A stretch of DNA of 64,000 nucleotides from contig NZ_BMPB01000018.1 in the NCBI RefSeq assembly GCF_014647375.1, forward strand, positions 1 to 64,000. The letters are read 5' to 3'. This DNA comes from Parabacteroides faecis (lineage in GTDB: Bacteria > Bacteroidota > Bacteroidia > Bacteroidales > Tannerellaceae). Positions 1,302 to 51,870 of this stretch are shown here, one piece after another. The position numbers and the translations under genes are program-made. Position 1 is the first letter of the stretch. Every line of letters begins with the position of its first letter. Below the pieces are notes generated by a model. That model did no database searches and had not been told where the DNA came from. It saw only the letters and a program-made list of their open reading frames with translations.

Positions 1302-1751
1302 TTATTCGATTTCCGGTCTGTCACTGCCACCTTCTTCTTTCTTTTCTTCCGGGTCGGAGAAGGCATCGAGGCGGTCGTAACTTGTACCGGAGATCAGCTG
1401 GCGTAACATGGCGCCGGGGGTAAAGACGATACGAGGTTTCTTGAACATCATAGGGTCGAAATCTTTCAGGGTATTGGAACCCTTACTTCCGGCTACCATG
1501 CGGAAGTTACCGAATTCTCCCATTTGAATCACATTGCCGCTTTCGAGCAGCATACAGAGAACATAAATCAGACCATCGATAACCAGTTCTACTTCACCGG
1601 GTTTGGCGGTGCAATAACCGGATACCAGTTTACACAGTTTTTTGAAAGTAGTCTTCTCCATCGAACGGATCTGACCGTAATACAACTGAGCGCCTTGGGC
1701 TGCTCCTTTGCTCATGTCCTTTTTGAGGACGATTCGATACTTTAATGGCAT
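1302..1751 (-). CDS. HU-like DNA-binding protein
   Basis: The 149-residue protein matches the Bacteroidetes HU/IHF-like family. It starts MPLKYRIVLKKDM, has a helical N-terminal half, a MGEFGNFRMVAGS beta segment, KPRIVFTPGAMLRQ like the HU arm region, and an acidic tail ending GGSDRPEIE. These proteins bind DNA with little sequence preference and may compact or regulate it. The start is supported by the A+T-rich leader directly upstream and by the usual family N-terminus. It is first in the HU-glucosaminidase-small protein cassette. The same DRPEIE ending occurs in a short open frame at 23999-24127, about 22 kb away. Confidence 0.85.
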   Translation of the reverse strand: MPLKYRIVLKKDMSKGAAQGAQLYYGQIRSMEKTTFKKLCKLVSGYCTAKPGEVELVIDGLIYVLCMLLESGNVIQMGEFGNFRMVAGSKGSNTLKDFDPMMFKKPRIVFTPGAMLRQLISGTSYDRLDAFSDPEEKKEEGGSDRPEIE

Positions 1752-1995: not shown

Positions 1996-2217
1996 ATGAA
2001 AGAACTATTTCAACAAAAAGCATACGGATGGCAAGAATTGGCCGTCCTTTATGCTCCGGGATTAACTCCTCATTCTGCATCGAGAAGACTTACACATTGG
2101 GTGATAATAAATAAAGAACTGTACGAACGTCTGATACGTTCCGGGTGGATTAAAGGAGTCCGTATTCTTTCTCCTTTGCAAGTTGCAATTATTGTGGATT
2201 TTTTAGGCGAACCATAA
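1996..2217 (+). CDS. DUF4248 family protein
   Basis: The 73-residue product has the DUF4248 pattern: a short N-terminus, YGWQELAVLYAPGLTPHSA, then RRLTHWVIINKELYERL and a C-terminal SPLQVAIIVDFLGEP. The family is restricted to Bacteroidetes and has no established function. Its size and helical layout resemble a small helix-turn-helix protein, which is inference. In this window it stands directly before an array of 22-bp-spaced dyads and a set of replication-type genes, so it is a candidate binder of the array. The start ATG follows an A+T-rich leader. Confidence 0.8.
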   Translation: MKELFQQKAYGWQELAVLYAPGLTPHSASRRLTHWVIINKELYERLIRSGWIKGVRILSPLQVAIIVDFLGEP

Positions 2218-2230
2218 TACCTTGTGTATG

Positions 2231-2314
2231 CAAAAAAACAATTGTTTTTGATTTCGAATACAACTGTTTTTGCTTACAAATACAATTGTTTTTGTGACTG
2301 AATACAATTGTATT
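2231..2314. repeat. Array of four dyads with exact 22-bp period (iteron-like)
   Basis: Four copies of an A-rich/T-rich dyad around the core ACAAyTGT occur, with the hexamers CAATTG, CAACTG, CAATTG and CAATTG beginning at 2239, 2261, 2283 and 2305. The first copy, at 2234-2249, is a perfect 16-bp palindrome. The constant 22-bp pitch puts all dyads on one DNA face. Placement before a helicase/primase set suggests replication iterons or a multimeric operator. The rest of the 2218-2472 gap is A+T-rich without a gene. Confidence 0.8.
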
Positions 2315-2472
2315 TTATTTAATCGATAAATTTTAATAATCAAAACGCATAAAAAGAATGAATCCTTTTTCTTTTATTCTTATATATAATGTAGGGATTT
2401 GACAACCTTCAGGCAGGAGGTGGTGTATAGGGTTGATTTACTGTATTTTATGTGTGACAAACAAACGGCATT

Positions 2473-3036
2473 ATGGAAATAGCTGAAAATGAGAATGTTT
2501 ATACGGATGTTAAGGCCTTGATCTATTTTGGAAAATCTTATTTAAAAATACCTCGTGTAATCATAGAACGGATGTCCTCATCCAATAATAGTGAACGTAT
2601 GATCGGAATAGTACATTGGTTGCTGTTTTGTTTTTGCAATTATGCCGATGGCTATGTGTCGATCAAAGGAAAACAAGAAGTTTGCCATAGAGGAGAATGC
2701 ATCATCACTTACGAAAAGTTAGCCCGGTTAATGATGGTGGATAGCCGTTCGGTCAGAAGGTATGTCCACTCGCTGGAAAAGGAATCTTTGATAGAAGTGA
2801 AACGGGTAGCAAACTGTAGCTGCTTCCGTGTTTGTGGTTATAACTGTTTTACGGCTTCGGATGTCCCTGCGGAAATACCGCAAGAGAGCAAGAGAACCAG
2901 AGTGACAAAGAAAACGGTTGAGCCGGATGCGATAGCTGCGCGAAGAGTGGAGGCCGAACTGAAGATTAGTCACGGGAATGTGCCTCGTACCGACCTTCTA
3001 AAAAACTGCTGTGAATATGGAAAAGAATGTAATTGA
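2473..3036 (+). CDS. Winged-helix-like replication-associated protein
   Basis: The 187-residue protein has no family name that I can give with certainty. Residues of about 20-60 resemble the N-terminal domain of plasmid or phage replication adaptors (KIPRVIIERM, RMIGIVHWLLF). Residues of about 75-115 (CIITYEKLARLMMVDSRSVRRYVHSLEKESLIEV) read as a winged helix-turn-helix, here quoted in pieces: CIITYEKLARLM, then DSRSVRRYVHSLEKESL. The C-terminal 60 residues are basic and probably flexible. Its end overlaps the DnaB-like helicase gene by 20-26 bp, so the two are likely translated together. A helicase loader or origin-binding role, acting on the nearby dyad array, is plausible but unproven. Confidence 0.65.
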   Translation: MEIAENENVYTDVKALIYFGKSYLKIPRVIIERMSSSNNSERMIGIVHWLLFCFCNYADGYVSIKGKQEVCHRGECIITYEKLARLMMVDSRSVRRYVHSLEKESLIEVKRVANCSCFRVCGYNCFTASDVPAEIPQESKRTRVTKKTVEPDAIAARRVEAELKISHGNVPRTDLLKNCCEYGKECN

Positions 3037-4363
3037 AAGGGCTTTGCTCTGTTCTTTGTTTCTGGACCAGGTGGCGATTCTGGAAGTGGTCGGGTTGTTG
3101 CGTCCGGAGATGTTTTCCGATCCGGATCATGGGTTTATTTACGAGGCTTTTACCGATTTGTTTAATCGGAATAAACGTCCTGACCTGATCCTGGTGGAAG
3201 AGGAAATGAAAAAGAAAGACCCGGAGCGTTACCTGAAGATGGGAGGCATAGCGTACTTGTCGGATGGAATGGAGACGGTTCGCCTGGAATATAATGCCGT
3301 TGAGTATGCGCGCGAAATCCTTCGTCATTATCTGTTGGCTTGTATGCACAAACTGTTTGTACAAAAAGCATCGGAATGCCTGCAATACGGTACGGACTAC
3401 CAGAAAGTGATAGAAGACTGCGAGCGCGATTTACTGCGTTTGCGAATGGATAATTCGGAGTCAGACTCGCTTCAGCCGCTTAGTGAAGTGATGAAACAAT
3501 CTATAGACATTCATCTCGACCGGATGAGCCATAAGGACGATCCGGTGCGCATGCTGACCGGTATCAGCGGGCTGGACGGACTGACGGGAGGACTTTACCG
3601 GAAAGAAGTGCTGGTGTTGGGCGGTCTTCCGAGCGATGGAAAGACGGCGTTGGCGATGTTTATGGCGATGAATTTGGCTTGCAAGGGGAAGCATGTGCTT
3701 CATTTTAGTTTTGAAATGACCGGGGATCAGACTGCCGCTCGTTTTTTTGCCGGTTATGCCGATGTGGAGGCAGCCCGACTGCGTATCGGGGGACTTCGTG
3801 AGGAGGATATCGATCGGATGAAACGGTATGCCTCCGGTATGGAAAGAATGCCTTATTATTTTGCGAATGTTTCTTCTATGAGCCTCGAGGCATTGCGGGC
3901 GGAGGTGATGCTCCGGAGCCGGAAGGGCGAATGCGATGCTGTCGTGATCGATTACCTGCATACACTTGCTCCACCGACGAAAAAGGGGGAGACGCAGGAG
4001 TCTGTGATCCGTAATACCATAACGGCATTGAAACGTATTGCAGTGGAGGCTAATTGTGCCATGTTGGTCGTTTCGCAGTTGAACCGCGAGGTGTTGAAAC
4101 GTGCTGAGAATGGTTTTGTTCCGATGATGAGCGATTTACGTGATTCGGGAGCCATTGAGTTTGTGGCGGATTGTGTGGTGATCATCAATCGTCCGGAACG
4201 TTTCGAGAAGAATCTGGACAAATACGGAGAGAATGCCTCACACCTGGTCAAGTTGTATGTCCTGAAAAATCGTAACGGATCGACAGGTATTGCCGAACTA
4301 TACAGGAATGATACCTATACGTCTTTTGTGAATCCGGGTGGTAACTTACATTTTGAAGATTGA
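3011..4363 (+). CDS. DnaB-like replicative helicase
   Basis: The 450-residue protein has the DnaB layout. An N-terminal DnaB_N-like helical domain covers roughly residues 5-110 (IERALLCSLFLDQVAILEVV), and a RecA-type ATPase domain runs from about 180. Walker A is GLPSDGKT with Lys at about 211; VVIDYLHTLAP is Walker B; VSQLNREV and SDLRDSGAIEFVAD are conserved later motifs. The family unwinds DNA as a hexamer at replication forks. The frame opens with GTG at 3011; an ATG at 3017 is an alternative. Its stop overlaps the primase start. It is more divergent than a chromosomal DnaB would be, which suits a plasmid- or phage-derived module. Confidence 0.9.
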   Translation: MNMEKNVIERALLCSLFLDQVAILEVVGLLRPEMFSDPDHGFIYEAFTDLFNRNKRPDLILVEEEMKKKDPERYLKMGGIAYLSDGMETVRLEYNAVEYAREILRHYLLACMHKLFVQKASECLQYGTDYQKVIEDCERDLLRLRMDNSESDSLQPLSEVMKQSIDIHLDRMSHKDDPVRMLTGISGLDGLTGGLYRKEVLVLGGLPSDGKTALAMFMAMNLACKGKHVLHFSFEMTGDQTAARFFAGYADVEAARLRIGGLREEDIDRMKRYASGMERMPYYFANVSSMSLEALRAEVMLRSRKGECDAVVIDYLHTLAPPTKKGETQESVIRNTITALKRIAVEANCAMLVVSQLNREVLKRAENGFVPMMSDLRDSGAIEFVADCVVIINRPERFEKNLDKYGENASHLVKLYVLKNRNGSTGIAELYRNDTYTSFVNPGGNLHFED

Positions 4364-5832
4364 TGAACAGACTGGAAATTTCATCATTCAAGGAACGGGT
4401 TGATCTGGTAAAGGTGGTCGGCCATTTCCTGACACTCGAAAAGAAAGGGGCGGCTTATCTGGGATTGTGTCCTTTCCATGACGATCATCATCCCTCGTTG
4501 CGGGTAGATCCGGTAAAAGGGGTATACCACTGTTTTAGTTGCGGGGCAGGAGGGGACGTTTTTCGTTTTGTACAGGAAAAGGAAGGATGCGGTTTTAGTG
4601 AGGCGGTCCGTATCTGTGCGGATATCTGTCGTTTGTCCGTTCCCGTACCTGATGCGGGAGTACGGAAGCTGGTAAAGCAACCGGCCGGAAAGGATAGTTC
4701 CCGTGCGGTTTCACATCTGGTGAAGAGGCAGGCTGTTGCTCCTACGGTTGAAGAGAATCGACAGTATGGGCAGACGTTACTGCTGTATGATCCGGGGATG
4801 GAAGAGTTGGTGAAGACGTATGTTGCTTTTGGAGTGGGTATTGCACCGGCTGTCGTGCCGGATGCCTGGAAGTTTACACGCGGGCGGATTGTCTTCCCGA
4901 TTCATAATGCCGGAGGGGAATTGGTCGCTTTTGCAGCCCGTTACAAGGGGGAATTGCCTTCCAAAAAGATCGCAAAGTATCTGAATAGTGAGACCTGTAC
5001 TATTTATAAAAAAGATGAATTACTTTATGGTTGGCACCGAGCGGTAGAGACTGTGCGTGAAACAGGAGTGGTTTTCCTGACTGAAGGATATAAGGATACG
5101 TTGGCGATGCATGCGGCTGGTTTTACTAATACGGTTGCTATATGTGGCACGAATTTGTCGGAACATCATATTGCCATGCTTCGGAAGGTGACTTCTACGG
5201 TTTGTTTGTTTCTGGATGCCGACGAAGCAGGACGGAAGACGGTGGCGGAGGTTATTCCAAAACTGTATAAAGCCGGTTTGCAAGTGGTGGATATACTTCC
5301 GGAAAGCGGAAAGGATGCGGATGAGATGTTCCGCCTGATGGGGCGTGAGGTATTTATCCGGTGGGTGAAAAAAGGGATGCTATCTCCGGCGAGACGGAGA
5401 GCGGAGTCGTTGTTGGTTGCTGCCTGTCACCGTTGGCCGGATACATGTTGCCTGACGGAAGAAGGGGAAGAAGTTCTTTATGTGGATAGTATCCGGAAGA
5501 TTCTTTCCTGTGACGATTTGTTACCGGGAGATAGTCTGGTATCTTTGCCTGATGCAGAACTGCAAAGCCTCCGGGCGGAGGATAAAGAGCTGGATAAACA
5601 GTATGCTTTGCATACGGATCCGCTGCATAGTGACCGGGTGCGTCGCAGTGAATTGGTCCGTTATCTTTTTCTGGGTTATTTGGAGGTACGCCTGGTTGAC
5701 CGTGTCCGGCAGGACCTCTATCGTTTATCCCATACTTTTGCCGATGAAGAGTCGCGTGTTCTTTTATTATCTGATTTACAGTATCAACGAAATTATTTAA
5801 GTAGCGTCTCCTGTGAATTGGGCAGGAGATAA
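4363..5832 (+). CDS. CHC2 zinc-finger / TOPRIM primase (DnaG-like)
   Basis: Residues 36-60 form a CHC2 zinc finger: C36-x2-H39 and C57-x2-C60, with CPFHDDHHPSL and CFSCGAGGDVF. A TOPRIM domain follows at about 215-315, with VVFLTEGYKDTLAMH supplying the catalytic Glu and CLFLDADEAG the DxD-like acidic pair. DnaG-type primases make RNA primers for replication. About 150 C-terminal residues are not recognisable and may contact the helicase. The ATG at 4363 overlaps the helicase stop (TGATG), so the pair is translationally coupled. With the upstream helicase, winged-helix protein and dyad array it forms a compact replication set without visible recombinase or transfer genes. Confidence 0.9.
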   Translation: MNRLEISSFKERVDLVKVVGHFLTLEKKGAAYLGLCPFHDDHHPSLRVDPVKGVYHCFSCGAGGDVFRFVQEKEGCGFSEAVRICADICRLSVPVPDAGVRKLVKQPAGKDSSRAVSHLVKRQAVAPTVEENRQYGQTLLLYDPGMEELVKTYVAFGVGIAPAVVPDAWKFTRGRIVFPIHNAGGELVAFAARYKGELPSKKIAKYLNSETCTIYKKDELLYGWHRAVETVRETGVVFLTEGYKDTLAMHAAGFTNTVAICGTNLSEHHIAMLRKVTSTVCLFLDADEAGRKTVAEVIPKLYKAGLQVVDILPESGKDADEMFRLMGREVFIRWVKKGMLSPARRRAESLLVAACHRWPDTCCLTEEGEEVLYVDSIRKILSCDDLLPGDSLVSLPDAELQSLRAEDKELDKQYALHTDPLHSDRVRRSELVRYLFLGYLEVRLVDRVRQDLYRLSHTFADEESRVLLLSDLQYQRNYLSSVSCELGRR

Positions 5833-38310: not shown

Positions 38311-38392
38311 GGTGTTGTTTGTTTCACCTTAATGAAACAACTGTTTCATATTGTAGAAACAAGTGTTTCTTCATAGTGAAACAATTTGTTCT
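38311..38392. repeat. Array of 22-bp-period dyads between trpG and trpD
   Basis: Dyads TGAAACAACTGTTTCA (38333-38348), AGAAACAAGTGTTTCT (38355-38370) and TGAAACAATTTGTTCT (38377-38392) start exactly 22 bp apart. A fourth, half-conserved unit is at 38311-38326. Core and pitch resemble the array at 2231-2314. It could be an operator or regulate trpDCFA separately. Confidence 0.8.
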
Positions 38393-41663: not shown

Positions 41664-41697
41664 AGAAAAAAGGCCTGTCGCAAGTGCGACAGACCTT
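41664..41697 (-). terminator. trp attenuator terminator
   Basis: On the minus strand AGGTCTGTCGC/GCGACAGGCCT with an ACTT loop is followed by TTTTTT. It lies between the leader peptide and trpB, 43 bp after the leader stop. CCTGT in the interval before it can pair with ACAGG in its 3' arm. Confidence 0.88.
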
Positions 41698-41739
41698 TCT
41701 ATGATATCTTGATTTAGTATATACACAGGACTGCGTTCC

Positions 41740-41802
41740 TTACGACCGTTTGAGGAGTAAAGAGCGCCACCACCAAAATGTATTTACTATAAATGTTCTC
41801 AT
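41740..41802 (-). CDS. trpL: trp operon leader peptide with three Trp codons
   Basis: On the minus strand ATG at 41802 opens a 20-codon frame, [20 protein letters not shown], ending with TAA at 41740. Three consecutive tryptophan codons (TGG TGG TGG) directly before a terminator hairpin and the trp genes are the signature of transcription attenuation by a stalled ribosome. It lies about 25 bases after the predicted transcription start. When charged tRNA-Trp is scarce, ribosomes stall at WWW and the terminator should fail to form; I did not resolve the alternative antiterminator fold in full. Confidence 0.9.
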
Positions 41803-41825
41803 TGCTTTTTTTGTTATTACGGCAG

Positions 41826-51552: not shown

Positions 51553-51557
51553 CATCG

Positions 51558-51627
51558 TGTTTTTCATGGTATTAGATTTAAGGTTAACAATGAAGATTGG
51601 CTGTCCGTGATGGATAGCCTTTTTTGC
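51558..51627 (+). ncRNA. Predicted small RNA, copy 1
   Basis: A transcript starting near 51558 would run TTTTTCATGGTATTAGATTT, then AAGGTTAACAATGAAGATT, and end at the hairpin GGCTGTCC-GTGAT-GGATAGCC with TTTTTT (51599-51625). No long reading frame is present. The approximate length is 70 bases. Tandem paralogous small RNAs are known from Bacteroides, where some control polysaccharide-uptake genes; kinship is inference. Confidence 0.75.
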
Positions 51628-51734
51628 GTTTATAGGGTTCCTTGTCTTATGCTCATGCTTTATGCTTATAAAATATGTTTTGCAGCAGGTTTTTGTTAAA
51701 CTGTATTAAATAGATGAGAAAAACAAGCAAAACA

Positions 51735-51766: not shown

Positions 51767-51771
51767 CACTG

Positions 51772-51841
51772 TGTTTTTCATGGTATTAGATTTAAGGTTA
51801 ACAATGAAGATTGGCTGTCCGTGATGGATAGCCTTTTTTGC
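51772..51841 (+). ncRNA. Predicted small RNA, copy 2
   Basis: The predicted transcript is essentially the same as copy 1, with the same terminator at 51813-51839. Only the first bases after the -7 box differ (CACTGTG against CATCGTG). Its 3' end points toward the end of the opposite-strand hybrid kinase gene. Confidence 0.75.
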
Positions 51842-51870
51842 GTTTTATACATACCGGTCTGACAGGCCGA

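Follow-up and report, generated by a model that had tools for sequence, protein, structure and literature searches.

HU proteins are the textbook example of nucleoid proteins that bind DNA without sequence specificity. The HU-HIG family (PF18291), which combines an HU domain with a winged helix-turn-helix (wHTH), an Ig or a glycine-rich motif, is already known as a named family, as are operator arrays as a kind of element, and to our knowledge no binding site or array has been described for this family. Its members that possess a C-terminal winged helix are referred to here as HU-wHTH proteins. A structural model of one of them was matched by Foldseek (E-value 7.8e-05) to BVU_2165 (PDB 4FMR), a putative DNA-binding protein from Bacteroides vulgatus, although the latter has a longer chain and shares 10% identity with the model; we know of no DNA site for BVU_2165. 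In a classification of HU proteins, only about 60% of the HU-family sequences from Bacteroidetes aligned well and the others were left out (PMC5683647). Searches of the open-licence literature returned no description of dyad arrays at a 22-bp pitch, of their location upstream of HU-wHTH genes, or of the sequence variants (dialects) in which they occur.

Among described elements, the iterons of plasmid origins share with the array reported here the form of direct repeats about 22 bp long in A+T-rich sequence, next to genes for a helicase loader, a helicase and a primase; unlike such iterons, the dialect and the class of this array recur on the chromosome at places without replication genes. The sites of Lrp/AsnC octamers also resemble the arrays in containing about four phased dyads each, but the products of the genes that follow the arrays are HU-wHTH proteins and not Lrp proteins. 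Lastly, REP, BOX and other small interspersed palindromic repeats are dispersed, intergenic and palindromic, as the arrays are, whereas the arrays differ from them in their strict pitch across unrelated sequences and in the presence of an HU-wHTH gene behind one copy.

Position and Genomic Context of the Array

The array lies at positions 2231..2315 (no strand assigned) of a 64,000-nucleotide stretch from Parabacteroides faecis (contig NZ_BMPB01000018.1), referred to below as the window, and consists of four dyad units of dialect A (AAWACAAYTGTWTTT) at a pitch of 22 bp. When the 64-kb window was searched by pattern, ACAAYTGT cores were found at 2238-2245, 2260-2267, 2282-2289, and 2304-2311, and a repeat search returned four copies with spacings of 22, 22, and 22; both searches confirm the preliminary description, which had placed CAAYTG starts at 2239, 2261, 2283, and 2305 with a spacing of 22 bp held three times. 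The region 2231-2314 is 76% A+T. The array, with three ACAAYTGT pairs at 22 bp, is beyond chance, as none of 20000 dinucleotide shuffles of positions 2201-2360 held even one such pair. By a motif-free score, which adds dyad symmetry to unit-to-unit identity, the array reached 46, as compared to a maximum of 34 over pitches 17-31 when the 2 kb around it were shuffled 500 times. The ACAAYTGT core alone is less telling, since 2 of 100 shuffles of the window attained its 11 matches.

The array occupies the space between a gene for a DUF4248 protein of 73 aa (1996..2217, forward strand; PF14053, E-value 3.4e-23), 3' of whose stop codon it is located, and a gene for a DnaD-like helicase loader (2473..3036, forward; phrog_2514, E-value 2.4e-8), which begins 158 bp beyond it. 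These are followed by genes for a DnaB-like helicase (3017..4363, forward; PF03796, E-value 3.7e-55), a DnaG-like primase with a CHC2 zinc finger and a Toprim domain (4363..5832, forward; PF01807, E-value 7.8e-29) and, next after the primase, a Wzi capsule assembly protein. On the other side, beyond the DUF4248 gene, an HU-HIG protein of 149 aa that lacks a winged helix is encoded on the reverse strand (1302..1751; PF18291, E-value 3e-22). This HU-HIG neighbor and a second array near 38337 were absent from the preliminary description; its DUF4248, DnaB-like and CHC2 primase assignments hold, whereas the gene at 2473-3036, which it termed winged-helix-like, matches DnaD-like helicase loaders.

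The second array (38319..38391, no strand assigned) also has a pitch of 22, is of dialect B (GAAACAACTGTTTC) and occupies the putative trpG-trpD gap; sister arrays of it are present at ten matched places in the same genome. The names menF, menD, trpG, and trpD used in this work were read from translations, and an Rfam match to the Bacteroid-trp leader at 41688-41822 (reverse strand) fits a trp operon. Elsewhere in the window, the sRNA family BTncRNA_FopS is represented by two tandem copies with equal scores (51557-51629 and 51771-51843).

A replication origin had been suggested by this context, and replication genes are indeed adjacent to the array. The order of DUF4248 stop codon, array, and loader, helicase and primase genes is also kept in three genomes (the window, L320 of G076 and L322 of G014), so that the placement beside these genes is upheld, but no general tie to them was found. 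Of seven other DUF4248 stretches in the P. faecis genome (L066-L072), two contain strong 22-bp arrays (L071 and L072, score 44), both before an HU-HIG gene; L069 and L070 have weak arrays behind DUF4248 (score 34 versus shuffle maxima of 29 and 31), and no 22-bp array was found in the other three. Dialect A is not restricted to the replication locus, as it also occurs in the menF-menD gap and at sites that lack DUF4248. Because the dialect as well as the class recur at unrelated chromosomal loci, including those without replication genes, neither an origin nor a link of the array to DUF4248 and replication genes is supported as a general account.

A Class of Arrays with a Pitch of 22 bp

The 22-bp dyad arrays constitute a large class in gut Bacteroidales that is apparently undescribed. 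Counted on both strands, the P. faecis genome contains 93 ACAAYTGT pairs spaced by 22 bp when as many as two mismatches are allowed, compared to 7 for the backward pattern. When 31 genomes of the genus were searched without mismatch at spacings of 12-42, 85 match rows were obtained, of which 70 by hand count were at exactly 22 bp (palindromic pairs being listed twice), and the backward controls gave 13; a pair was present in 18 of these genomes and one at exactly 22 bp in 15. A motif-free scan (score of at least 34) of 462 kb of the P. faecis genome, comprising the 398-kb contig C1 and the window, detected 12 arrays at pitch 22, between 0 and 3 at each of the other pitches in the range 17-31, and no array at 22 once the sequence had been shuffled. 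Related genomes preserve the pitch, and the array therefore passes the test of conservation that the preliminary description had set for it.

The sequences of the arrays differ from locus to locus (GAAACAACTGTTTC, CGGTTGATAATTATCAGCC, GCCACAGTTATGGC, AAAACATATATGTTTT, and others), and it is these variants that we call dialects. A three-unit ACARYTGT pattern matched at least 120 stretches in named genomes; among the matches listed, 80 loci are mostly titled Parabacteroides, Tannerellaceae, Bacteroides, Bacteroidaceae or Prevotella, with L117, L155, and L161 as outliers. In these 80 loci, five arrays are inside an ORF and 22 at the edge of one. One exact dialect does not extend across the order, as the triple ACARYTGT was present in 2 of 198 genomes and this motif is not general, a rarity that we ascribe to the differences between dialects. 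A viral origin was rejected after the three-unit pattern gave no match among viral contigs.

Several individual arrays deserve mention. The arrays of L117 (titled Spirochaetaceae) and L155 (titled Verrucomicrobia) are on records assigned to other phyla, and the former resembles the array of L273 in G014 (dialect similarity 0.95), so that mis-binning is possible. L237 of G014 is letter-identical to L116 from Parabacteroides acidifaciens. The array at 4723-4811 of L013, between two co-oriented genes, has four nearly identical 22-bp units (GCCACAGTTATGGCACAAGACT), whereas the units of other arrays have diverged, and it looks recent. In G077, pairs of arrays in opposite orientation are separated by a few tens of bases (C43:12506-12713 and C2:127398-127581), and in the P. 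faecis genome two arrays of different dialects (C1:258006 and C1:258255) lie less than 250 bp apart in one gap 5' of a predicted lipoprotein-like gene.

Arrays Preceding Genes for HU-wHTH Proteins

The strongest association of the 22-bp arrays is with genes for HU-wHTH proteins. Clustering of the 509 ORFs in the 80 loci placed an HU-family protein directly behind the array in four loci, and a profile search found an HU-HIG gene starting right behind it in seven of these array-selected loci (L117, L120, L142, L143, L165, L176, and L192; in two of them the end of the locus truncates the gene). The proteins behind the arrays are members of PF18291, with E-values from 2e-23 to 3e-35 for five of them. 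The P. faecis genome contains 34 matches to PF18291, and nine of its HU-HIG genes encode a C-terminal winged helix. An array of pitch 22 was recognized by eye within 300 bp upstream of seven of the nine, the exceptions being L262, whose array fits a pitch of 21, and L244, which has none; a score based upon dyads only was passed by three of the nine. Upstream of two short HU-HIG genes without a winged helix (L258 and L261), repeats are seen that by eye look spaced by 23 bp and not 22.

Forty further HU-wHTH upstream regions were chosen by protein match alone, in order of E-value and with some rows skipped by hand before the DNA was viewed. A pitch of 22 was the top pitch among 17-31 in 38 of them, and in 36 no more than 1 of 100 shuffles attained the score at this pitch, as compared to 0-3 of the 40 regions for other pitches between 18 and 26; four regions failed this test, and the top pitch of L367 is 21. 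These regions are not independent, because several are from one genome and two (L335 and L338) are near-identical. Nine of 200 ordinary upstream regions from contig C1, used as controls, passed at 22 (1-6 at other pitches), and these nine include one HU-wHTH gene and arrays already listed. Outside the family, 21 loci from the order were considered, of which two could not be placed and two had too little upstream DNA; 12 of the 17 that were scored passed, in four families, although the gene starts of three of the 17 (L410, L415, and L429) are doubtful and the arrays with which L423 and L430 passed were unconvincing by eye. The dyad-only score gave a weaker result, as 17 of 36 HU-wHTH loci (including L286, whose gene was not placed) passed, the best pitch being 22 in 14.8 and 33 in 5.8 when ties were split.

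The anatomy of these arrays was examined in a set of 59 with a score of at least 33 and an even dyad. They contain three recognizable units in 28 cases, four in 21, five in nine and seven in one, and the median distance from the end of the array to the start codon is 70 bp. In 38 of the 59, the 60 bp that precede the first unit contain a TAnnTTTG box, which we take to be the Bacteroidetes -7 promoter element, compared with 3 of the 59 for an equal stretch farther up; the most frequent offsets of the box (-34, -23, and -1) are separated by multiples of 11. In the half-site averaged over dialects (TTGTC), the strongest positions, counted from the center, are G3 and T4 (0.62 and 0.74), giving AC-NNNN-GT dyads; these are the most constant part of the averaged dyad GACAATTGTC. 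In a structure model of the protein of L142 (six sequences, mean pLDDT 83), the HU domain extends from about residue 32 to 119 and the winged helix from about 133 to 197. Both modeled domains are near solved examples and the sequence profiles agree, and an HU domain followed by a winged-helix fold is thus predicted for the HU-wHTH proteins.

Correspondence Between Dialects and Proteins

Dialect similarity tracks winged-helix identity better than HU-domain identity. Among 34 HU-wHTH proteins, with odd dyads and scores below 31 dropped and L244 kept without a clear array, its correlation with winged-helix identity was 0.29 (0 of 2000 permutations). This became a partial correlation of 0.21 (13 of 2000) with the HU domain held constant, versus 0.11 (187 of 2000) for HU-domain identity with the winged helix held constant, shared ancestry being only partly removed from these values.

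Arrays are also dispersed at places away from HU genes. Of 25 distinct dispersed arrays in the P. faecis genome (27 entries), five matched the upstream array of an HU-HIG gene in the same genome with similarities of 0.81-0.98, viz. L024 and L025 to L256 (0.98 and 0.94), L026 to L241 (0.95), L027 to L242 (0.94), and C1:258006 to the capsule-type L246 and L249 (0.81). The remaining 20 had similarities below 0.5 to any array of their own genome or were outranked by arrays from other genomes; L016 and L023, which by eye look like the dialect of L254, scored 0.23 and at most 0.22 against own arrays. In G014, the array C68:93121, which precedes the HU-wHTH gene C68:93269, has four sister arrays elsewhere. 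When the arrays inside or at the edge of an ORF are set aside from the 80 named loci, the 48 without an HU gene are located in 29 tandem, 11 divergent and 8 convergent gaps, whereas the other gaps in the same loci number 72, 33, and 16, respectively; as they are spread over gap types like the background, they are not apparently placed as promoter operators.

Dialects A and B match no HU-HIG upstream array of their own genome. The orphan HU-wHTH protein L244 was considered as a reader of dialect B and rejected, because the genomes containing its orthologs with at least 74% identity (G000, G062, G072, G074, and G076) and those with dialect-B matches (G000, G063, G066, G072, G076, and G078) do not coincide.

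The array of the window, which has four dyads at an exact pitch of 22 bp and a core (ACAAYTGT) of the AC-NNNN-GT form, belongs to the class described above, but it is not directly upstream of an HU-wHTH gene. We have classed it as a dispersed relative and not as a leader array, because the nearest HU-HIG gene (1302-1751) starts 480 bp away and lacks the winged helix. Additionally, no TAnnTTTG box was found in its gap, so that the array does not resemble an operator in a leader and could be a dispersed site.

Dialect A is clear in 4 of 39 genomes of the genus (G000, G014, G074, and G076), and a hit with two mismatches in G078 resembles dialect B. It has two sites in the P. faecis genome, of which that in the menF-menD gap (L009) has a similarity of 0.98 to the window array, and four in G076. 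One copy is directly behind DUF4248 in G000, G014, and G076, whereas this gene is missing from the site in G074 and from the three others in G076. Orthologs of the window HU-HIG protein with at least 68% identity were detected in G000, G014, and G076 alone among the 39 genomes, which are the genomes with dialect A behind DUF4248; in G074, which has dialect A, the best ortholog is not above 46%. The co-occurrence may reflect co-inheritance, as protein and array share one locus, and no array is present in the 400 bp upstream of this HU-HIG gene. The capsule-type HU-HIG genes L246 and L249 are preceded by AAAACATATATGTTTT arrays that share the outer half-site with dialect A, although the similarity over the whole unit is only 0.46. 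Based upon the coincidence of genomes and the arrays of these capsule-type paralogs, the HU-HIG protein 1302-1751 is the best candidate for a reader of the window array, a role that it could quite possibly have, although we stop short of calling it probable.

Proposed Function and Alternative Explanations

The reading that best fits these sequence patterns is the one raised in the preliminary description, namely a protein that would line up along the DNA with one contact per two helical turns. We consider it fairly probable that an array is a binding site for several dimers of an HU-family protein, and that an HU-wHTH protein reads its own array as well as dispersed arrays of the same dialect. 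In Bacteroidales, an array of about four dyads at the 22-bp pitch separates the start codon of an HU-wHTH gene from a promoter-like box. One dyad would be contacted by the winged helices of one dimer, and neighboring dimers, two helical turns apart, would be aligned on one face of the DNA. The HU bodies would bend the DNA, so that four dimers could compact or bridge about 88 bp. Occupancy of the leader array would block transcription of the protein's own gene, and elsewhere the protein would occupy dispersed arrays of its dialect, thereby marking or joining chromosomal sites. DNA binding, cooperativity, autorepression and a role in chromosome organization are all inferred here from sequence. 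A more far-reaching version, that Bacteroidales possess a large set of histone-like proteins with sequence specificity, that each HU-wHTH paralog has a private dialect with one array in its own leader and others dispersed regardless of promoters, that the paralogs organize the chromosome by orthogonal codes, and that capsule-locus HU-HIG proteins without a winged helix use arrays of the same build, is put forward tentatively and is rather doubtful.

Alternatively, the arrays could be small interspersed, possibly mobile palindromic repeats of the REP or MITE type, some copies of which were taken up as control sites and thereby became linked to HU genes. They are dispersed and multi-copy, to a small extent for dialect A and to a larger one for dialect B, which gave 32 match rows in G072; the copies of some dialects share ends beyond the units, and the dispersed copies follow the background distribution of gap types. 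The abundance of dialect B and the shared ends keep the spread of mobile repeats in contention. However, the pitch of 22 is constant across unrelated sequences, arrays precede 36 of the 40 HU-wHTH genes in similar positions, and a recurrent transposase beside the arrays, looked for among the 15 widest clusters of the 509 ORFs from 80 loci (names assigned by eye), was absent. We regard this explanation as unlikely.

It is also conceivable, and in our estimation quite improbable, that a different protein reads the window array, the candidates being the DnaD-like loader, DUF4248 and unlinked regulators (e.g., an Lrp-type octamer, which four units would suit), and that the loader, helicase and primase genes have their operator or start site there. 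Its conserved place 158 bp before the loader gene in three genomes is consistent with this, but dialect A is also present at sites without these genes and the gap contains no TAnnTTTG box. A function of the arrays as hairpins in leader RNAs is very improbable: most HU-wHTH arrays are probably transcribed, as they lie between the promoter-like box and the start codon, but among the dyad mismatches the sense strand has no clear G-U excess that would support hairpins (GT:AC of 159:125, or 1.27, in units and 235:190, or 1.24, in whole arrays, where composition leads one to expect 1.16), the dispersed copies show no orientation bias, and Rfam gave no match in ten array loci, its matches in the window being away from the array.

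Significance

If the proposed reading is correct, a widespread branch of the HU proteins would have strictly phased, specific sites, which would tell which paralog binds where in abundant gut bacteria. The pairs of a protein and an adjacent array would form a large natural data set for learning the specificity of winged helices. Lastly, the link between arrays and HU proteins makes the function of many HU paralogs of the Bacteroidetes directly testable.
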